From Picosynechococcus sp. PCC 7117 (GTDB taxonomy: Bacteria > Cyanobacteriota > Cyanobacteriia > Cyanobacteriales > MRBY01): a DNA stretch of 64,000 nucleotides. Where the stretch lies: the NCBI RefSeq assembly GCF_001693275.1, contig NZ_CP016482.1:186001-250000 (forward strand), read 5' to 3'. The notes under the pieces were generated by a model. The model did not search any database, was not told the origin of the DNA, and saw only the letters and a program-made list of their open reading frames with translations. Positions 3,271 through 21,836 of the stretch are shown piece after piece; position 1 is the first letter of the stretch; every line of letters starts with the position of its first letter. A program made the translations under genes and the position numbers.

Positions 3271-3666
3271 CTATTGTTTTAAAGCCTTGAGTAAACAAGA
3301 CATTTGAGCAGCGGGAGATAATAAAATATCGGGTAATAAACAGCCACCTAAAGTGTCAAGAATGAGTTCGCCATGGACTTGGACATAACGGGGAATTTCG
3401 TCGATGACGAGGACAAAGGTGGAAGTCGTGCGATCGCCAAGAAAGTCAGGATCAATGTAGGCCAGACGGCCATCTTGAATCATCAAGCAGGTATCATCTG
3501 CACCATTGGCGTAGATCTCAACGAATTCAGGCAGGTAACCGTCAGGTAGCGGTTCAGCGTCCCAACCTTGACCTGTGAGTAAACCGAGGGATTCAGAAAA
3601 ATCGACCTTGGCGCGGATTACTTCTGGAAGGTCGTCAATGAGTTTTTGGTCGGAATCCATAAGCAT
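3271..3666 (-). CDS. Hypothetical protein of the transfer operon
   Basis: 131 residues from ATG 3666, which has a GAGG box about nine bases upstream; ATG 3660 is an alternative. Acidic, soluble, no obvious membrane segment. Segments such as EVIRAKVDFSESLGLLTG and YLPEFVEIYANGADD suggest a small folded domain. Its upstream gap (3667-3771) carries a motif shared with the promoter region of the second transfer operon, so this gene may begin a separate transcript. No family recognised. Confidence 0.65.
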   Translation of the reverse strand: MLMDSDQKLIDDLPEVIRAKVDFSESLGLLTGQGWDAEPLPDGYLPEFVEIYANGADDTCLMIQDGRLAYIDPDFLGDRTTSTFVLVIDEIPRYVQVHGELILDTLGGCLLPDILLSPAAQMSCLLKALKQ

Positions 3667-3739
3667 GGGAGAGTACCTCAAAGTATTGGTATAAAGGCAA
3701 AAACTGCCTTCTATGGAGTAAGAGAAAAAAGGGGCGAAA

Positions 3740-3771
3740 ATTCGGATAAAGTTGCAAAATAAATTTCGAGA
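3740..3771 (-). promoter_or_regulatory. Motif shared by the two type IV secretion operons (copy 1)
   Basis: The stretch beginning ATTCGGATAAAGTTGCAAAA and ending TTTCGAGA is almost repeated at 26971-27004, upstream of the VirB2-like gene. Both copies lie in front of a leftward transfer gene. A shared promoter or operator is inferred. Confidence 0.5.
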
Positions 3772-5619
3772 TCAGAAAACAGCGGCGAGTAAGTCGGCGG
3801 TTTCTGGGGCATCAATCGCCCGAAAAGCTTGGGCATCTTGACGCAGTTGATCGAGGTCAATTTCTTTACTGGTAGGTGTTTTCGCTTGGGGAAGATCCGG
3901 ACAGATCTCTTGATAGGCAGAAATTAGAGCGAGATCACGTTTGATAAAATCTCGCTGGGTGAAGTGGGGCAATGCCGTCTTTAAAAACTGCTGCTTGAGG
4001 GTTTCCCAGTCGGCAGTGGATTCCTTAAACGCCTTGAGATCATGCTCTGGAATAATGATGGTTTGGATCAGAGGAATGCGGGAACCCTGGCGATCGCCGA
4101 TCCCCCGATTCCAGATAATCGCTTTCCCCTGGGAGAGTTGCAGAATTTCACTGGGGTCGATGATAGCAACGGATTGCTTATGCTCCGTATTACTGGTGGA
4201 ATTGCCGCCCTTTTGCCGAGATCGCCCTCTGGTGTCGAACTCCACATCCCGATTGCCGACCGATTTCGAGTATTTTTCCGCATCGGCAATGTCATTCGCT
4301 TGAAACACCAATTGCGTCGCACAGGCTTTGAGTAAACGACTTGCCCCATCTTTGCCATAGCGTTTTTCAAGGACTTCAGGAAATTGCACCCCGATTGCCA
4401 TCACCAGACCCGCCGAACGGTGAATATTCGGCCAGTCTTCCGCCGAAGGGAGATAGATTTGGGAAATCTCATCCAGCCAGAGTAAAAAAGGACGTTGACG
4501 TGGCTTGAGCAAATTACGGTTTGTGAGAAGGTGGATCACCGTTGCCAAAATCGGGTTCACAATCTCGCCCCGTTCCGCATCACTGCCACAGATGAGGATT
4601 TTGCGTTCATCTAAATCCAGCGGAATCGTCGTTTTTCCACAGATGGCAGGCAAAAGATCTGGCATCAATAAGCCACTCAAAAGATTGGCAAAAGTCGCCT
4701 TGATGCTGCCATAGGTTTCCTCAACGCCAAAGACATCGACCACCGCATCAAACACCATGCGAATCGCCTCTGGTTGCGCGTCTACAATAGCCTGCAGTTG
4801 GTTACTCGGCAGGCGTGTCAAGGTGCGACACATCACCAGATCAGGGCAGTCCGTTTGTTTCGCCAGCAGCATCACCCCCGCCAAAAAAGAAGTCGTCGCC
4901 TCCGTGAAAAAGGGATTGGAACCCCCCTTCAAAGCCTGGGGATTTAAGTTCAGGTAAAGGACTTTGGCAATTTGTCGCGCCATCGCCGCATCTTCTGGGT
5001 GACGAATAAAATCGAGAACATTGCAGCAGAGCGATTCCGGTTTACCAGGGGCAAATAAGCCGACCTCATAGTTCAAACGCTTGGCATAGCCTGCAATCAA
5101 CGCCGTGGGAGCGGGATCTTCTGGGGAATGGGTGGAATATTTGATGTCGAAATACAGTCCCGGAATGCCCTGGGCCAAACCCGACAAAAAGAGAGGATTT
5201 AAGGCCGAAAAACTTTTTCCTGAACCCGCACCACCGAGAACAGAAATGCCAGAGGTACAGTCGCTGAGATAAAGGGTTTGCGGGTCATAGCAGAGATCGA
5301 TGGACCATTTTCCCTTTTGACAATGAAAAACTGACCCTTTCGGCGTGCCAACCCAAAGCCCAACATCGGCTCGTTTCGTTGCTTGAACCTGCTTTAACGT
5401 TCGCAATGCGCCATTTTTGACCTGTTGCGGTGTGGCGAGTTTACCCTTGCCGAGACTGGCAGATTTGCGGCGATCGCCCTTAAAGTTCATGAAGGCTAAT
5501 AAAACTCCACAACCTAGCAATAGTAAGCCAAGCGGCGAAAAAATCAGCTCACTCACATAGACGTTAAGGTCGGGTTGGGGAGTCGGAGAAGGCGGGTGGT
5601 TTGTCTGCAGGTTGGACAT
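3772..5619 (-). CDS. virD4: Type IV coupling ATPase (VirD4/TraG-like)
   Basis: A 615-residue inner-membrane ATPase that would bring the relaxase-DNA complex to the secretion channel. One membrane segment lies at about residues 26-45 (FSPLGLLLLGCGVLLAF). The Walker A motif GGAGSGKS is at 129-136 and Walker B PFLLWLDE at 377-384, followed by a TraM-recognition-like stretch (DWPNIHRSAGLVMAIGVQFP). Length is usual for the family. The gene overlaps the end of the upstream gene by 56 bases. It is the ATPase of the leftward operon whose other members are VirB6-, VirB8-, VirB9- and VirB10-like. Confidence 0.9.
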   Translation of the reverse strand: MSNLQTNHPPSPTPQPDLNVYVSELIFSPLGLLLLGCGVLLAFMNFKGDRRKSASLGKGKLATPQQVKNGALRTLKQVQATKRADVGLWVGTPKGSVFHCQKGKWSIDLCYDPQTLYLSDCTSGISVLGGAGSGKSFSALNPLFLSGLAQGIPGLYFDIKYSTHSPEDPAPTALIAGYAKRLNYEVGLFAPGKPESLCCNVLDFIRHPEDAAMARQIAKVLYLNLNPQALKGGSNPFFTEATTSFLAGVMLLAKQTDCPDLVMCRTLTRLPSNQLQAIVDAQPEAIRMVFDAVVDVFGVEETYGSIKATFANLLSGLLMPDLLPAICGKTTIPLDLDERKILICGSDAERGEIVNPILATVIHLLTNRNLLKPRQRPFLLWLDEISQIYLPSAEDWPNIHRSAGLVMAIGVQFPEVLEKRYGKDGASRLLKACATQLVFQANDIADAEKYSKSVGNRDVEFDTRGRSRQKGGNSTSNTEHKQSVAIIDPSEILQLSQGKAIIWNRGIGDRQGSRIPLIQTIIIPEHDLKAFKESTADWETLKQQFLKTALPHFTQRDFIKRDLALISAYQEICPDLPQAKTPTSKEIDLDQLRQDAQAFRAIDAPETADLLAAVF

Positions 5620-14702: not shown

Positions 14703-17700
14703 GTGACAGAAACAGATCTAGAACGGATACAGCTAAGAAACTATTTGACAAATTTGTGGCAGCGAGGAGGCAAATTTGATTCAATCACAGCAGCAAGAAA
14801 AGCTATTCAAGCGGAATTAGGGATCGCCATTGAGCCGGGGAGTCAAACTGCAAAAATCATTGATGAAGTACTGGAATTATCATTGGTGACCGCAGCACGG
14901 GAAATAGCGTCTGAAAAAAAGCCACTAGAGGCATTTGACTTACTGGTAGATTTGTACGATCGCCAACCGCGTTTAGGGGTACGGTCATCAACAAGCGTCA
15001 GACAGCAAGCTTATAGTACGGCTTTACCCATCGCTTATTTAGCCTCGACTTTGGCGGGCATTAATCCAACCGCAAAAATCTATGAACCGACCGCAGGAAA
15101 CGGAGCATTATTGCTAGGGGCAGCACCAGAAAATTGCACTGTTAATGAACTGAATCCAGATCGAGCTAATCAACTCCGTAGCCAAGGGTTCACAGTGACG
15201 GAACAGGATGCAACGGCATATCTGCCGAACCAATTCCATGATGTGGTGATCATGAATCCGCCGTTTGGTCGGGTGAAGGGGAAGCGATTTCGCCTCGCTG
15301 GAGAGATGGGAACAACAAGCCAAATTGATCAGGCGATCGCCCTCCAGGCGTTGCAGGCGATGAAAAACGATGGTAGAGCAGTTTTGATTTTGGGAGGGAA
15401 ACCAGAAACCACGACATCGGAACGGGCCGAAGCCTATAACAGTCTGGAAACTCGACGCTTTTTTTATGTATTACAGCAGCAGTATAACGTCATTGATCAC
15501 TTCACCATTAGTGGTGATCTATACCGGAAACAGGGGGCCGGTTGGGCAATCGATATTATCCAAATCGCTGGGCGGGGGCAATCTCAACGACCTTTACCCG
15601 CCGTAGAACCGCCCCGAATTTATACCAGTTTTAATCAATTACGAGGATTTCTCCATGACTATCTCCAACGCAATCCAATTGCCGAGTTACAACGAATACC
15701 AAACCACCGACCGCGTCTGGATCCCAAAAACAGAGGGGGATCAGGCGTTATTTATGGTACGAATTCCAGCGAACCTAAGCACTCTCGACTTTCAGACGTA
15801 CCTCGAATTGATGAAAGTGCGGGTCGAGTGGATGTGCCGCCAATGGCTGGAACAGACCGGACAGTTGAAGAGCTTACAGGAGGAATTAGAGGAGACATTA
15901 CAGCAACTCAATCCGTATTTGATGGCTCCTTTGCTCTATCAGAAAGAGGACACCGACGAAATCGGCGATTGGTTGATGAACTGGGCGGTGAATCTGGTGG
16001 AATTCAATTCGACATGGCGGAATTGGTGGCAGATAACCAACTGGGCAATCGAGTTTCCCGTCTCCCTAACGGAATTAAAGCCGGATCCCAATCAGATGGC
16101 ACAGCACGACGCAGTGACAATATCGCAATTTCTGTCGGAACTCAGAACTCCTTTCCCATAAATGAAGAAACCACCATGAGTGAAGAATTTAACATTCCTT
16201 ATCAACCCCGTAGTCAAGGGCGATCGCCGCAAACTCTTATTCCAACAAACATGGCGGTGGCAGCCCAGAAAGCTCTTGATGTTTTTGAAGCAGTCCATGG
16301 CAATATTGACGATTTTGTTTGTCAGCGATTAGGCTATCCCTCCAAATCAGTGATGTTTGAGGTGTTGTACGCCGAGCAGATTGATTCCCTTGCCTTGGCT
16401 TTTGTCCAGAAGGATCAGGGGAAAATTTTTCTTAACGGCGACCAGACGGGAAATGGTAAGGGTCGATTTGGTGCTGCCAATATCATTGATGCCCAGCGAC
16501 AGGGCCATATTCCTGTGTTTGTCACCCAAAAGCCCAATCTCTATGCCGCAATGTTGGAGGACTTGGCGGATATTGGGCAGGGTGGAATGACGCCTTTTAT
16601 GACCAATAACAATGAGAAGCTGATCCTAAAAAATGGCACAGTGTTGACCACCGGAAATAAGGCGAGTCAGGAAGCAGAGATGTTCCAGATCGCCCAACGG
16701 TTGCATCTTGGCAATTATGGTGTAGTATTTACGACCTACAATCAGTTACAAACGGTCAATAATCAGGAACCCTATCGCCGAGAATTTTTGCGGGCGATCG
16801 CCCACCGTTCAGTCTTTATTTTTGACGAAGCCCACGAAGCCGGTGGGGGTCAGTCCGAAACATGGAAAACCGGACAGGCTCCCAATCGTGCTGAATTTGT
16901 CCGGGAATTGGTAGATCTCAGTGCAGGCGCGATGTTTATGTCCGCCACTGCCACTAAAAATCCTGCTGTGATGGATTTGTATGCCCGGAGAACCGATGCA
17001 ATCCATGCAGTAGATAGTATGTATCGCCTGGAAAATACCCTAAAAGCGGGAGGAATTCCCCTCCAGCAGATGATGGCAACCCAGTTTGTCCGTGCGGGCA
17101 ATATGCTGCGACGGGAACGGAGTTTCGACAATATTAGTTTCGATGCCAAGACTGTTCCTGTAGATCAAGACGTTGCCGACAATATTTCCGCCGTGATGCG
17201 AGCTATTGATCGCTTTGATGCGACCAAAGCCAAGGCAATGAAAGAATTGCGCAAGGAGGTGAGGGCAGAAGCGAAGAGTCTTAGCGAGGATAATTCCATT
17301 GGGCAGGCTAGTGTGCAGTCGGTAAATTTCACTTCCCTCATGCACAATGCTATTGAACAGGGATTACTTTCCCAAAAAGCAGAGGCCACTGTCCAAGAGG
17401 CGATCGCCGCCCTAGAACGAGGTGAAAAACCTTTAATTGCCCTGTCCAATACCATGGATAGCTTCATCGGCAGTTATGCCAAAGACCAAGGCATCGAGGC
17501 AGGGGAAGCGATTGAAATTACCTTTGGCGATGTTCTAAACCGTTATCTCGAACGTTCCCGCGATGTCATTATTACCGACTATCTCGGCAAGCGTACTCGA
17601 ATGCCCATGACCGCTGACCAATTGGGTGAAGAGGCGATCGCCGCCTTTGAAGAAGCCAAGGAAATCCTTGCCAATGCTGATTTTACGAAAATCCCCCTCA

Positions 17701-20700
17701 GTTCCATCGATTACATGAAATACCGTTTAGCCCAGGAGGGTTATCGCGTTGATGAAATTACAGGACGCAGCAGCATTCTCCAGTACAACGATTCAGGCAT
17801 GACCTATGTCCTCCGTTCCGCCAAGGACACCAGCCCCCAAGCCAAAATTGATATTGTCAATCGCTTTAACAGTGGGCAATTAGATGTCGTCATCTTAAAC
17901 CGCAGTGGTGCGACGGGGATTAGCCTCCATGCCTCTGAGAAATTTACTGACCAACGCCCCCGACACATGATCGTCGCCCAGGCTGAGCGGGATATTAACC
18001 AGATGATGCAAATGTTGGGACGGGCAAACCGTTTTGGGCAGGTGATCGAGCCAAAATTCACCCTGGTGATGGCAGATGTTCCCGCCGAGAAACGCTTGGG
18101 GGCAATCTTGGCGAAAAAAATGGCATCCCTCAATGCCAATACCACCGGCGGACGGGATTCTGCCTTGAGCGTGGGCAACGTGATTGATTTCATGAATACC
18201 GCTGGAGAGGAGGTAATCACCGAATTATTGGAGGAAAATCCAGAACTCGATGCCATGTTGTCCTACCCGACACGGGGCAGTTTAGACGGAGATACTGCCC
18301 TCATCCAACGGGTGACAGGACGTATCCCCCTTTTACCTTTGTCAGACCAAGAAGAACTTTACGGCATCATCGAAACCGAAACTGAAGCCCTGATCAAACA
18401 AAAAGAGGCGATGGGGGAGAACATTCTTGCGGCGGATAAACTCGACCTCGATGCCCGCACTGTGGCAATGATGGAAGTTGTGCCAGCGGATGCCAATGTA
18501 GTCAGCGAATTTACTGGAACTGTGGTGCTGGAGGTGGTCGATGCCAAGGTAATCAATAAACCCCCTTCCCAATTACAGGTAATGAACTTGGTGCGAGAAA
18601 ATCTCGAACAACCCAAGGTGAAATCCATTGAAGAAAATGATCTTGGAGCAATTCAGGCGATCGCCCAACAAGAGGGTCAGGTCAAACTCCAAACCCTCCA
18701 AACGGCGATGACCGCCTACCGAGAGCGGGTATTGTCCCAACTCAGATCTGCGGCAACTCTAGAAAAAACCCAGGAAAAACTCGATCAACAGTGGGATGCT
18801 GTTCAGAAGATCATTGAGCAATTTCCAGTGGGAGAACCCGTTCAGTTTTTTAGCCTTGGTTTGGAAGGTGTAAAAATTTCCTCCGGTGTGGTGATAGACA
18901 TTACTCAAAAAAGTCGCATGATCGGTAGTCCTAGTGCCCCCACCAACTGGACAATGCAAATTATCAGCCTCGAAGGGAAACGGCTTTCTTTACCTTTTTC
19001 TAAAATCAATACCGGACGGGCCTCTAGTATTACCCTCAATCCAGCGGATTCAGACCGGAATATCTACGGCGAATTTGATCGTCTACAACAGGCACAGCGG
19101 ACGGAAATGCAGGTATTCACGGGAAATTTACTGAAAGCTTACGAAAAATTTCCCAAGGGTAAGTTTGTGAACTTCACCGACCAGCAGGGGCAAACCCGAC
19201 AGGGACTGTTGATGCACCAGGACTTCGATATCGTCGAACAGCTCCAGCAACAACCTGTATCTTTTGAAAACCCAGAACAGGTGAGTCTTTTCCTGACGGA
19301 ATGGAGTCATAACCGGGGTGTGGTGGAATCTTTGGAGTTAGATTTAGCGATCAAAGCCAATGGCAATGCCAGGCTCACTGGCAAACCCCCAGAATATTAT
19401 GTGGTGCAGGTTCCAGAAGCAACGAGTCGTGGGGGCAAATATTTTCTCAATGAAGCTTTACTCCAAGCTGCACAGGAGGAGTTTTATTCCGTGGGTGGCC
19501 GCATGGAAATGCGAGTACAACCCAAGGATTTAGAGGCAGTTGTACAGGTTTTGATGGAGGCATTAAAGGTGAAATTGGCCGTCCATGATCCCAGCTACAA
19601 AGAATTATTAAGGGAACATTTAGGACAATCTTTGCCGACTTTACAGCAGATGGTAACGACTCCAGTTCAGCCTGAAGCCACGGAACAATTGCAAATTTTC
19701 AATGCTCCACCTGCCGCAATAGCCACTCCACCACTGCCCAAGTCCGTTGAACCTATACCTATGACTACAATTGCTGAATATACTGCGCCGGTGCAGTCCT
19801 CAAGAGCCAAAACCCAAGGTATTCTGTCGTCGGAAAAGCAGGGGAGTAAGGCAGCGAAACATATCGCCCAACTTCTGCATAAATCAGGATTTGCGGCACT
19901 GGTGCTGGCAGGGGAGAGTTTCCATCAGCGGTTTGAACAGGATGGTTATTTACCTTTTGTGATTGAACGGCACGGTGAACAGTTTTATTTAAGCCATTAC
20001 GCTGAATTGAATGGGGATCACTATATTGACGCCGAAATGGTGTTTCAGATTGGTCAGCGGGGAAATTTATCATTACTGGAAACGGCGAGTTATAACCCTT
20101 TGACTGGGGGTGAACTGCGAAATAAAGATTATCGTTTTGCTGAATTATTTTCTGGGAATCTTTTGGCACAGGGCTGGGCGGAAGTTATGCAAGCCAGTCG
20201 GCAGGATTTCGTTCCAGGGCGAGAGGAAGAGATCGTCGTCTCAGAACCAACAAAAACTCCAGAAAAAATTGCATACCCACAAGAACAGCCTGCTCTAAAA
20301 TCTGACCCACCGCTTCAGAATAGTGCCCCATCAAGTCCGAGAGATTTGGTCGTCAGTCCGGAAAATTGGGGCACGGTGGCAAGGGCGATCGCCAAATCCC
20401 CAGCGTATTTGCAACGAATTCAGGAGGTTACAACAAAACCCTTACAGGAGAAGGCTGTCACTGCGATGGAAAATGATTTTGCCGCTTTTCAGCAGTCCGT
20501 GACTGCATTACGGCAATGGTATGCTCACGCCCGCTGTATCGATAAAGCCGCCAATTATCTACAAGGCATTCAGGCGATCGCCGAACAATTTAAAGCCGGC
20601 CAACCCCTGAGTGAAGCCATCCACTGCGCCATGCAAGAAGATCGCCGTGTCGCTACCTTTGAGCAGCTCGCAACGGACTTAGACCGCCAACACCCCGCAA

Positions 20701-20939
20701 CTTTTCTCCAAACTGTCGCCCAAAGAGGCTTACAGAAAGGATTGCAAGTACAAGAACTCGCCGCGACTCTATTACAAGGCGATCCAGCCCTGCGGGATAT
20801 TCATAAAATTCAGCCCCAATCAACCCAAGCCTACCTGCAAAAAATTCTTGCCACCGCTGAACAACTTTTCACCAGAGAACAGTCCCAACCCATGCCGGCA
20901 AAAGTCTCCAGTGAACAACACCATCACCAAAAACTTTAA
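14703..20939 (+). CDS. Giant DNA methyltransferase / Strawberry-notch-like helicase (DarB-like)
   Basis: 2078 residues from GTG 14703 (AAGG upstream; ATG 14701 is followed at once by a stop). An N-terminal N6-adenine methyltransferase has a SAM-site stretch (YEPTAGNGALLLGA, about 122-135) and the catalytic NPPFG at about 184. A low-complexity linker (about 300-490) leads to a superfamily 2 helicase of Strawberry-notch type: GDQTGNGKGRFG at about 579, FIFDEAHEAGG at about 706, MSATATK at about 745, and QMLGRANRFGQ at about 1104. Long C-terminal accessory domains follow. The order matches phage P1 DarB and plasmid relatives, which protect incoming DNA from restriction; that role is inferred. 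Another ORF is nested in the linker. Confidence 0.88.
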   Translation: MTETDLERIQLRNYLTNLWQRGGKFDSITAARKAIQAELGIAIEPGSQTAKIIDEVLELSLVTAAREIASEKKPLEAFDLLVDLYDRQPRLGVRSSTSVRQQAYSTALPIAYLASTLAGINPTAKIYEPTAGNGALLLGAAPENCTVNELNPDRANQLRSQGFTVTEQDATAYLPNQFHDVVIMNPPFGRVKGKRFRLAGEMGTTSQIDQAIALQALQAMKNDGRAVLILGGKPETTTSERAEAYNSLETRRFFYVLQQQYNVIDHFTISGDLYRKQGAGWAIDIIQIAGRGQSQRPLPAVEPPRIYTSFNQLRGFLHDYLQRNPIAELQRIPNHRPRLDPKNRGGSGVIYGTNSSEPKHSRLSDVPRIDESAGRVDVPPMAGTDRTVEELTGGIRGDITATQSVFDGSFALSERGHRRNRRLVDELGGESGGIQFDMAELVADNQLGNRVSRLPNGIKAGSQSDGTARRSDNIAISVGTQNSFPINEETTMSEEFNIPYQPRSQGRSPQTLIPTNMAVAAQKALDVFEAVHGNIDDFVCQRLGYPSKSVMFEVLYAEQIDSLALAFVQKDQGKIFLNGDQTGNGKGRFGAANIIDAQRQGHIPVFVTQKPNLYAAMLEDLADIGQGGMTPFMTNNNEKLILKNGTVLTTGNKASQEAEMFQIAQRLHLGNYGVVFTTYNQLQTVNNQEPYRREFLRAIAHRSVFIFDEAHEAGGGQSETWKTGQAPNRAEFVRELVDLSAGAMFMSATATKNPAVMDLYARRTDAIHAVDSMYRLENTLKAGGIPLQQMMATQFVRAGNMLRRERSFDNISFDAKTVPVDQDVADNISAVMRAIDRFDATKAKAMKELRKEVRAEAKSLSEDNSIGQASVQSVNFTSLMHNAIEQGLLSQKAEATVQEAIAALERGEKPLIALSNTMDSFIGSYAKDQGIEAGEAIEITFGDVLNRYLERSRDVIITDYLGKRTRMPMTADQLGEEAIAAFEEAKEILANADFTKIPLSSIDYMKYRLAQEGYRVDEITGRSSILQYNDSGMTYVLRSAKDTSPQAKIDIVNRFNSGQLDVVILNRSGATGISLHASEKFTDQRPRHMIVAQAERDINQMMQMLGRANRFGQVIEPKFTLVMADVPAEKRLGAILAKKMASLNANTTGGRDSALSVGNVIDFMNTAGEEVITELLEENPELDAMLSYPTRGSLDGDTALIQRVTGRIPLLPLSDQEELYGIIETETEALIKQKEAMGENILAADKLDLDARTVAMMEVVPADANVVSEFTGTVVLEVVDAKVINKPPSQLQVMNLVRENLEQPKVKSIEENDLGAIQAIAQQEGQVKLQTLQTAMTAYRERVLSQLRSAATLEKTQEKLDQQWDAVQKIIEQFPVGEPVQFFSLGLEGVKISSGVVIDITQKSRMIGSPSAPTNWTMQIISLEGKRLSLPFSKINTGRASSITLNPADSDRNIYGEFDRLQQAQRTEMQVFTGNLLKAYEKFPKGKFVNFTDQQGQTRQGLLMHQDFDIVEQLQQQPVSFENPEQVSLFLTEWSHNRGVVESLELDLAIKANGNARLTGKPPEYYVVQVPEATSRGGKYFLNEALLQAAQEEFYSVGGRMEMRVQPKDLEAVVQVLMEALKVKLAVHDPSYKELLREHLGQSLPTLQQMVTTPVQPEATEQLQIFNAPPAAIATPPLPKSVEPIPMTTIAEYTAPVQSSRAKTQGILSSEKQGSKAAKHIAQLLHKSGFAALVLAGESFHQRFEQDGYLPFVIERHGEQFYLSHYAELNGDHYIDAEMVFQIGQRGNLSLLETASYNPLTGGELRNKDYRFAELFSGNLLAQGWAEVMQASRQDFVPGREEEIVVSEPTKTPEKIAYPQEQPALKSDPPLQNSAPSSPRDLVVSPENWGTVARAIAKSPAYLQRIQEVTTKPLQEKAVTAMENDFAAFQQSVTALRQWYAHARCIDKAANYLQGIQAIAEQFKAGQPLSEAIHCAMQEDRRVATFEQLATDLDRQHPATFLQTVAQRGLQKGLQVQELAATLLQGDPALRDIHKIQPQSTQAYLQKILATAEQLFTREQSQPMPAKVSSEQHHHQKL
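15655..16161 (+). CDS. Nested out-of-frame ORF inside the methyltransferase-helicase linker
   Basis: 168 codons in a different frame from the giant gene. It has its own GAGG box eight bases before ATG 15655, a balanced Trp- and Leu-rich composition (RVEWMCRQWLEQTG, LKSLQEELEETLQQLNPYL) and stops at 16161. ATG 16176 (MSEEFNIPYQ) follows 14 bases later in the helicase frame. Ancestrally this may have been three genes (methyltransferase, this protein, helicase). Both frames are stop-free here. No family recognised; protein-like composition is my main evidence. Confidence 0.5.
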   Translation: MTISNAIQLPSYNEYQTTDRVWIPKTEGDQALFMVRIPANLSTLDFQTYLELMKVRVEWMCRQWLEQTGQLKSLQEELEETLQQLNPYLMAPLLYQKEDTDEIGDWLMNWAVNLVEFNSTWRNWWQITNWAIEFPVSLTELKPDPNQMAQHDAVTISQFLSELRTPFP

Positions 20940-20954
20940 AACTCTAAAAAACCC

Positions 20955-21269
20955 ATGCATGATCAACAAAAAACCGTCCACGAACTCAACCAAGCTGTCC
21001 TCGCCACTGCCCTGAGCAAACTGGTGAGCAATCTGCAATCCTGCCAATCTCGACTTGATTACGCCTATGCCAGAGCTACCCGTTCTCAAAATGTCCATAT
21101 CCAAGGCAAACTATCAGCAGCTTCATTGAAACTCTCAGAAATGCAAGAAATTTTGAATGATGAAGCCATACAGGCACTGCTCAAGACTCATCCAGAGCGG
21201 GATTTACTGCGGGAACTGATGGTCAACCCAACTATTCCCGCCCCAGCCCACGAAGAAATTAACTTTTAA
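20955..21269 (+). CDS. Small helical hypothetical protein
   Basis: 104 residues, 15 bases after the giant gene, so probably cotranscribed. Predicted all-helical (ELNQAVLATALSKLVSNLQS, KLSAASLKLSEMQEIL), no Cys, no membrane segment. A partner or regulator of the DarB-like protein is possible from position. No family recognised. Confidence 0.6.
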   Translation: MHDQQKTVHELNQAVLATALSKLVSNLQSCQSRLDYAYARATRSQNVHIQGKLSAASLKLSEMQEILNDEAIQALLKTHPERDLLRELMVNPTIPAPAHEEINF

Positions 21270-21326: not shown

Positions 21327-21836
21327 ATGCTAAAACCCCAAGACATCGTGATCTTACTTCAAGTTCACTGCTTAGGTACAACATGGACATATAGCGAATT
21401 AGCAAAAAGTCTAAAAATGAGTGCCTCAACCGTCCATGAAGCCTTACAACGTTGTGAACTGAGTCATCTATATAATCAAAACAAAAGAAGAATTTTAAAA
21501 GGAGCATTAGAGGAATTTTTAGTGCATGGTTTAAAGTATGCTTTTCCTGCAGAAGCTGGAGCAATCACACGTGGAATTCCTACCGCTCATTCAGCCGAAC
21601 CATTAAAAAAATTGTTAATGATAGAGGAGAAAAATCCTTATGTGTGGGCTTCAGCGAAGGGAAAAATTAAAGGTCAAAGGATAACTCCCCTGTATAAATC
21701 TGTGCCAGAAGTGGTGGAAAATGAGGAAAATTATCGATTATATGAATTGCTGTGTCTTGTTGATAGTTTACGGATAGGAAAGATTAGAGAACAGGAATTA
21801 GCATCAATGGAGTTGAGTAAAAGATTATATGTCTAA
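21327..21836 (+). CDS. HTH regulator, likely antitoxin partner of an AbiEii-like toxin
   Basis: 169 residues. An N-terminal winged helix-turn-helix (TWTYSELAKSLKMSASTVHE at about 19-38) is followed by a conserved middle (GLKYAFPAEAGAITRGIPTA), typical of a cyanobacterial regulator family found next to nucleotidyltransferases. The next gene overlaps it by eight bases and is such a nucleotidyltransferase, now decayed, so this reads as the surviving antitoxin half of an AbiE-like module. It would bind its own promoter; TATTCG/CGAATA arms lie upstream. Confidence 0.7.
   Translation: MLKPQDIVILLQVHCLGTTWTYSELAKSLKMSASTVHEALQRCELSHLYNQNKRRILKGALEEFLVHGLKYAFPAEAGAITRGIPTAHSAEPLKKLLMIEEKNPYVWASAKGKIKGQRITPLYKSVPEVVENEENYRLYELLCLVDSLRIGKIREQELASMELSKRLYV

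Follow-up and report, generated by a model that had tools for sequence, protein, structure and literature searches.

The window analysed here is a 64,000-nucleotide stretch of the Picosynechococcus sp. PCC 7117 genome, located on contig C6 of a six-contig genome. On its forward strand lies a giant gene for a methyltransferase-helicase protein, inside which a second open reading frame, ORF2, is found in another frame. The features of the locus are listed below in window coordinates.

14703 to 20939, plus strand: giant gene of 2078 codons with a GTG start, comprising an N6 DNA methyltransferase, a linker, a Strawberry-notch-type SF2 helicase and a C-terminal part with DUF6908
15255 to 15266, plus strand: NPPF motif of the methyltransferase part
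15643 to 15647, plus strand: GAGGA, a Shine-Dalgarno-like site 7 nt 5′ of the ORF2 ATG; homologues have sites at the same place
15655 to 16161, plus strand: ORF2, nested gene of 168 codons from ATG to TAA, in frame p, with the giant gene in frame p+2
15655 to 16161, plus strand: the same bases read in the giant frame, about residues 318-487, a hydrophilic inter-domain linker
16176 to 16178, plus strand: giant-frame ATG, 14 bases 3′ of the ORF2 TAA (16159-16161)
16401 to 17174, plus strand: AAA_34 match (Strawberry-notch P-loop NTPase) in the helicase
17745 to 18233, plus strand: Helicase_C_4 match (Strawberry-notch C-terminal domain)
19902 to 20093, plus strand: DUF6908 match

The giant frame contains no internal stop between 14703 and 20939, giving a product of 2078 aa. 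Its methyltransferase part matches a PHROG DNA methyltransferase (E 3.4e-8), with Pfam matches below cut-off, and no Pfam match was obtained for residues 1-100 of the N-terminal region (the LPD36 model itself was not run by name). With an N6 methyltransferase carrying the NPP(Y/F) motif, AAA_34 and Helicase_C_4 on its C-terminal side, and homologues on both named plasmids and predicted viral contigs, the protein fulfils three of the criteria for a polyvalent methylase-helicase dyad, including that of plasmid or phage carriage. The close named relatives are Picosynechococcus plasmids such as pAQ6 of PCC 7002. On the 3′ side of the giant gene are two small ORFs (20955-21269 and 21327-21836) without Pfam matches, and a 315-base annotated gene directly 3′ of the giant gene is also found in PCC 7002 and NIES-970.

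ORF2 lies entirely within the giant gene, on the same strand and in a different frame, and so fulfils the criterion for a nested pair. The initial annotation of this DNA had reported a 168-codon ORF in the methyltransferase-helicase linker, with its own ribosome binding site, a balanced composition and a stop 14 bases ahead of an in-frame ATG of the helicase. Each of these features was recovered as listed above, the ribosome binding site in the form of a sequence match, and the composition of ORF2 is ordinary.

The two readings of this stretch differ markedly in character. ORF2 is predicted to adopt a mainly helical fold (pLDDT 85.4, pTM 0.83), for which a Foldseek search of PDB and BFVD returned nothing at E 0.001 (best Z 2.8, rmsd 4.8, 86 aligned). 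Representative ORF2 sequences, which do not include every member, gave no Pfam, PHROG or NCBIfam match above cut-off; a Pfam Arm_PDR match to ORF2 (P0001) at E 0.004 is below the curated cut-off and was set aside. The giant-frame reading is rich in G, S, R, A, E and P, with a GRAVY of −0.99 and 23% hydrophobic residues, compared with −0.41 and −0.34 (41% hydrophobic each) in the flanking parts of the giant protein and −0.32 for ORF2. Because the helicase sequence, translated in that shifted frame with stops skipped, is also hydrophilic (GRAVY −1.04, 34% hydrophobic), the frame relation itself can account for much, perhaps not all, of this linker character. A review describes raised disorder in frames that arose de novo in the +2 relation (PMC8227390). 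The linker is probably a disordered tether, as predicted from composition without a structure prediction. One stretch is thus predicted to specify a small folded product in one frame and, in the other, the linker between two domains of the giant protein, with expression inferred.

Homologues of ORF2 were found by tblastn in four plasmid records and in five of the six genomes of the family, the window's own genome included. A profile of ten ORF2 sequences matched 18 places in 15 of the 388 genomes of the order, and the addition of plasmids gave a first comparison set of 23 places, all cyanobacterial. At 20 of these 23 loci the giant gene wholly contains ORF2 and neither frame is interrupted across it; at every one of the 20, the giant frame is p+2 relative to ORF2. 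Three further overlapped loci (Gloeobacter, G500 and G600) bring the overlapped cyanobacterial copies to 23. Excluded from the overlap statistics and kept as contrast were G236, where the giant frame is disrupted beside ORF2, and two free-standing copies, one in Leptolyngbya boryana NIES-2135 and one a second copy in G195 (G195a_x). In L. boryana (L036, 8540-16165) the helicase precedes the methyltransferase, and a separate ORF2 gene lies directly 5′ of the giant gene. The helicase frame is disrupted further downstream in PCC 7003 (L002), RL_2_0 (L010) and G231 (L042), at each of which both frames across ORF2 are open. The annotation of the Gloeobacter morelensis plasmid pGMOR1 (L051, 3488-9425) includes ORF2 (4504-4953) and a helicase start at 4950, so that the gene's methyltransferase half (match 3603-4490) is lost despite a frame with no interruption. 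On a Thalassospira plasmid, an ORF in the same frame is ORF2-like by eye; its profile E-value is only 0.018, and none of the other ORFs in nine comparators (499 in total) matches the profile at E≤10. A search of the phylum with ORF2 profile A4 gave matches in 8 of 386 genomes, of which those in G421 and G018 were judged false, the proteins being ones that we take to be PspA/IM30-like. Weak matches of this profile at L202 and L203, to helical proteins that are presumably PspA/IM30-like, are probably false.

Viral loci were reached via the helicase, a direct scan of viral contigs with ORF2 patterns having given no match. Two IMG/VR scans with helicase alignments supplied 58 and 80 loci (80 of 179 from the second), 138 in total with some contigs represented twice, and all of this evidence comes from predicted viral contigs. 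An iterated ORF2 profile was then applied to 6,568 six-frame ORFs of at least 60 residues from the 138 viral loci and eight plasmid or phage comparators. All 74 matches at E≤0.001, from 73 viral loci and Gloeobacter, fall in one relative frame on the plus strand, and none of the 6,568 ORFs in any other frame matched at that threshold. The 73 viral ORF2s were reduced to 56 unique sequences before counts were made. In a single pass, a profile of 20 cyanobacterial ORF2s recovers 25 of the 73 viral ORF2s, whereas a profile of their linkers recovers none. Among named phages, residues 1-866 of the giant protein match 3 of 50,697 records, none of them a P1 record, and searches of named phages and plasmids with the L121 ORF2 gave no match.

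The initial annotation had considered its proposal refuted if homologous giant genes were to lack this frame. They do not lack it in close and many distant relatives, but profile matches are missing from 65 of the 138 viral loci and from those non-cyanobacterial plasmids that were examined. Besides these 65 loci (E≤0.001), seven of the eight comparators are without a match at E≤0.001 (Thalassospira, Persicobacter, Vogesella, Pseudomonas putida ND6, Bacteroides phage BS-TP4, Cupriavidus and P. savastanoi), P1 DarB and B. vietnamiensis are without one at E≤10, and no ORF2 match was found in L054, which is outside the main profile database and was checked separately. Since the 65 viral loci, the seven comparators and P1 DarB gave no match, related giant proteins work without a recognisable ORF2. 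Giant genes of the Bacteroides-phage type, in L056-L093 and other viral contigs, have another ORF in the same linker frame, which shows neither detectable sequence kinship to ORF2 nor a clear Shine-Dalgarno site. Three groups of viral ORFs compared with ORF2 by hhalign gave probabilities of 0.5% (A5, Bacteroides-phage-like), 2.6% (A6) and 79% (A7, short), and they are not claimed as members; two of the 12 rows of A7 were already among the profile matches. The A6 ORF has a confidently predicted fold (pLDDT 81.4, pTM 0.76) with a helix order similar by eye to that of ORF2. No clear Shine-Dalgarno site is visible by eye in A5 or A6, and ORF identity exceeds linker identity in 49 of 55 pairs of A5, 62 of 78 of A6 and 50 of 78 of A7. 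A mechanical count of 58 further viral loci with a same-frame open stretch was discarded, as in at least one of them (L087) that frame is the methyltransferase gene itself.

The distribution of ORF2 bears on its origin. In the ORF2 tree the free copies occupy two places inside overlapped groups, both on long branches: G195a_x is placed with G195 and G257, and L. boryana, with weak support, with G202. In the helicase tree, L. boryana groups with overlapped genes (SH-aLRT 99 by a quick method, on a long branch). Based on these placements, the free-standing copies are likelier to be later escapes from the overlap than ancestors of it. The helicase tree was built from 84 chosen rows (62 of the 138 viral loci and 22 others, with Thalassospira labelled by eye), and on it the three labels of ORF2, same-frame ORF and neither require 15 changes, against a least possible number of 2. 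Gains and losses of ORF2 therefore appear, on this tree, not to be simple, and no single clean gain is evident. The initial annotation had offered as one alternative that the giant protein arose by the joining of three genes, which could not be demonstrated, no three-gene precursor having been seen in relatives. In such a history ORF2 would once have been a free gene flanked by those for methyltransferase and helicase, which became fused through it when the +2 frame lost its stops. The predicted fold and ordinary composition of ORF2 fit this history, as does the hydrophilic character of the helicase in the same shifted frame, because of which an ordinary gene could serve as a linker; the methyltransferase and helicase of Persicobacter are moreover two genes, at a locus without an ORF2 profile match. 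However, no three-gene locus is present among the loci compared, the free copies are placed as escapes, and giants without recognisable ORF2 exist. Codon usage does not decide the matter, with ORF2 nearer than the linker to the usage of the giant gene in 35 of 70 cases (17 of 20 cyanobacterial and 53 of 56 viral sequences sampled). This origin is thus possible and no more than that, and both the joining of three genes and de novo overprinting remain.

To assess how ORF2 might be translated, its starts were chosen by a rule on Met position that is independent of the Shine-Dalgarno site, in 20 cyanobacterial and 53 of the 56 viral sequences (three are without a usable Met, and Gloeobacter was omitted). 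A Shine-Dalgarno match of at least 5 bases at a fitting distance precedes 55 of these 73 starts, compared with 103 of 2118 control ATGs taken from the same frame elsewhere in these giant genes (Fisher p 1.6e-51, uncorrected for relatedness); the other 18 have fewer than 5 matching bases. Immediately 5′ of the ATG, 38 of 73 have an ORF2-frame stop, and in 66 of 73 one is found no more than 16 codons upstream. A giant-frame ATG follows the ORF2 stop at one offset in all six loci of the Picosynechococcus group and at varying offsets in the other 14 listed, and a giant-frame ATG or GTG is found at most 20 bases 3′ of the stop in 13 of the 20 loci. Because of the Shine-Dalgarno matches and the ORF2-frame stops ahead of the ATG, these sequences favour internal initiation over frameshifting. 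If ORF2 were instead made as a methyltransferase-ORF2 fusion by +1 frameshifting, without internal initiation, its start, in the +1 frame and just where the methyltransferase part ends, would be well placed. That reading is unlikely, however, as it faces the same upstream stops and ribosome binding sites, and no slippery site common to the upstream sequences of the homologues was found in an inspection by eye.

Whether both frames are maintained was examined by asking how many stops one frame would acquire if the protein of the other were held fixed. In the window, with synonymous codons drawn from the usage of the giant gene, about 10 giant-frame stops are expected when the ORF2 protein is fixed and none is observed (0 of 4000 draws were stop-free), and with the giant protein fixed 4.2 ORF2-frame stops are expected and none is observed (P0 = 0.005). 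The same holds in all 20 overlapped loci of the first set, where fixing ORF2 predicts 3.7-13 giant-frame stops per locus and none occurs (P0 ≤0.0003 in 18 of 20; 0.0175 for G202 and 0.002 for Chroococcidiopsis), while with the giant frame fixed P0 is ≤0.05 in 19 of 20. By contrast, the two free-standing copies have 18 and 10 stops in the would-be giant frame. Across the 56 unique viral ORF2s, 410 giant-frame stops are expected with ORF2 fixed and none is observed (P0 ≤0.05 in 49 of 56), and the third frame has 724 stops. The reverse viral test, with the giant frame fixed, is weaker: 94 ORF2-frame stops are expected and none is observed, with P0 ≤0.05 in 11 of 56. Relatedness among the loci and among the pairs means that these sums and p-values suggest more independence than there is.

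A second line of evidence comes from silent sites, counted over all pairs at codons with equal first two bases, in five of the six Picosynechococcus-group loci and in 34 of the 56 viral loci (the closest group by E-value, place and length). In the five Picosynechococcus-group loci, four-fold sites of the giant frame differ at 30 of 579 (0.052) within the overlap, compared with 213 of 599 (0.356) in the methyltransferase end and 462 of 1008 (0.458) in the helicase, so that giant-frame silent sites are about 7-9 times less variable in the overlap than in the flanks. Those of the ORF2 frame differ at 105 of 455 (0.231). The corresponding viral values are 0.649 and 0.628 in the flanks, and 0.141 (giant frame) and 0.421 (ORF2 frame) in the overlap. 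The silent sites of the giant frame coincide with ORF2 second positions, and those of ORF2 with giant-frame first positions, so depletion in both is what two coding frames predict. Silent-site conservation in homologues, named as a check in the initial annotation, is thus present in both frames. In addition, codon periodicity follows giant-frame third positions in the flanks but those of ORF2 within the overlap, and ORF2 identity is higher than linker identity in all 561 pairs of the 34 viral loci (0.54 versus 0.41). Taken together, the comparison shows two frames that are kept open and depleted of silent change, the signature expected of purifying selection on both.

The long open frame is not used as evidence of coding, as linker composition alone predicts long open stretches: given the linker amino acids, null means are 101-109 codons, and the medians seen in the viral loci are 125-131. 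Because an open frame of this length is unremarkable alone, the weight rests on conservation of the frame in homologues. The stop and silent-site tests also speak against translation of methyltransferase, ORF2 and helicase as three separate genes across a giant frame open by accident. The giant-frame ATG or GTG codons within 20 bases of the ORF2 stop at 13 of 20 loci, and the Gloeobacter annotation with its ORF2 and separate helicase start, are compatible with such an arrangement, but it would leave the absence of all 410 expected viral giant-frame stops, and of the 3.7-13 expected at each of the 20 cyanobacterial loci, to chance; the ORF2-frame silent sites are depleted too, and the arrangement is very improbable. 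Least tenable is translation of the giant frame alone with ORF2 as a by-product of linker composition and conservation, which the predicted open lengths of 101-109 codons permit but which conflicts with the loss of giant-frame silent variation in the overlap, the ORF2-type periodicity, the ORF2 start signals and the failure of a linker profile to recover viral linkers.

Dual coding of the region is, in the absence of expression data, close to certain from these comparisons. The alternative raised by the initial annotation, in which the same DNA encodes two proteins, is supported by sequence and model evidence alike: depletion of silent change in both frames, start signals, an exclusive frame and a confidently predicted fold. 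The best overall explanation, in which ORF2 is a nested, dual-coding gene with internal initiation, is given a probability of roughly 0.85, with expression and function inferred. Under this explanation the giant frame would yield an N6-methyltransferase and a Strawberry-notch helicase held together by a linker that is hydrophilic and probably disordered. Ribosomes would initiate inside the giant message at the Shine-Dalgarno site and ATG at the end of the methyltransferase part, producing ORF2 as a small helical protein in the other frame that ends just ahead of the helicase. Nesting would keep this protein and the giant one on a single transcript, and ORF2 is proposed to be a partner (subunit, chaperone or regulator) of the plasmid or viral methyltransferase-helicase. 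The partner role is suggested by the persistence of ORF2 in the giant gene and its position directly upstream of it in L. boryana; the role is inferred, and its odds are put at even. The existence of relatives without a recognisable ORF2 suggests that any such role is that of an accessory subunit, chaperone or regulator, and not a catalytic need.

The region is accordingly regarded, on comparative tests in which the length test is neutral, as a real conserved dual-coding region and as a new family of nested genes within a known class of giant mobile-element proteins, with expression and function remaining inferred. It provides natural replicates, as 56 different viral and 23 cyanobacterial overlapped copies share one frame, with silent-site depletion in both frames wherever tested (39 loci). 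An unnamed protein family is thereby added to the plasmid and viral methyltransferase-helicase machines, and the nesting offers an explanation for the low-complexity linker of these giants. Annotation programs usually miss ORF2 or, as in Gloeobacter, cut the giant gene. The question of whether a structured gene is able to act also as a disordered linker is made testable in the laboratory strain Picosynechococcus PCC 7002, on plasmid pAQ6, where the homologous ORF2 lies at NC_010480 100513-101013. A six-frame mass-spectrometry peptide search that covered this plasmid is described as giving five regions with at least two orphan peptides and 351 with a single one (PMC3364912). A broader reading, neither favoured nor excluded, is that linker overprinting is an ancient, widespread and lasting device, with a folded partner in one frame, a disordered tether in the other and nesting that couples their making. 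If this were true, ordinary genes would, as a consequence of the genetic code, be hydrophilic when read in the +2 frame and could therefore double as linkers, and the making of enzyme and partner would be coupled across cyanobacterial plasmids and the viruses of several host groups.

To our knowledge, long same-strand nested genes have seldom been proven outside small viruses. The virus phiX174 is small in size, whereas ORF2 is carried by plasmids as large as 326 kb and by viral contigs reaching 98 kb (L182). Overprinted genes of the phiX174 type likewise place two frames on one DNA stretch, according to the available sections of a review (PMC8227390). Among the matches listed in the open-access literature, a scope that leaves out most subscription papers, no report of a nested gene in methyltransferase-helicase proteins was found; one paper that combines "polyvalent protein" with "overlapping gene" (PMC13299392) appears, from the portion available, to concern a different subject.

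The giant protein itself corresponds to a known class. As set out in the available text of Iyer et al. 2017 (PMC5512222), methylase-helicase polyvalent proteins join an N6-adenine methyltransferase with NPP(Y/F) to an SF2 SWI2/SNF2-like helicase, with Strawberry-notch variants; the dyad occurs on phages, plasmids and conjugative elements, and is grouped with those proteins of phages and plasmids whose target is incoming DNA, the type being P1 DarB. The protein described here has the same methyltransferase with NPP(Y/F), the same Strawberry-notch helicase and the same carriage by mobile elements. Its section on methylase-helicase proteins makes no reference to a nested gene, and the word "overlapping" is absent from its main text (PMC5512222). 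DarB, which the same source describes as having an antirestriction role and a location in the phage head (PMC5512222), is likewise a methyltransferase-helicase fusion but, unlike the giant gene, has no ORF2 match in six frames at E≤10. The P1 darB region (L195) has a 177-codon open +1 frame just ahead of the DarB Walker motif, which resembles neither ORF2 nor an ordinary protein. The closest working parallel to the nesting of ORF2, judged from the part of the source available, is that of the Rz/Rz1 spanins of lysis, in whose embedded form a whole gene is nested out of frame in another phage gene and the two products are partners in one complex (PMC6139136). The two-component spanins occur in embedded, overlapped and separated versions and are often unannotated, according to the same partial source (PMC6139136). 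The spanins are different proteins, and the frame that hosts ORF2 is the inter-domain linker of a giant enzyme.
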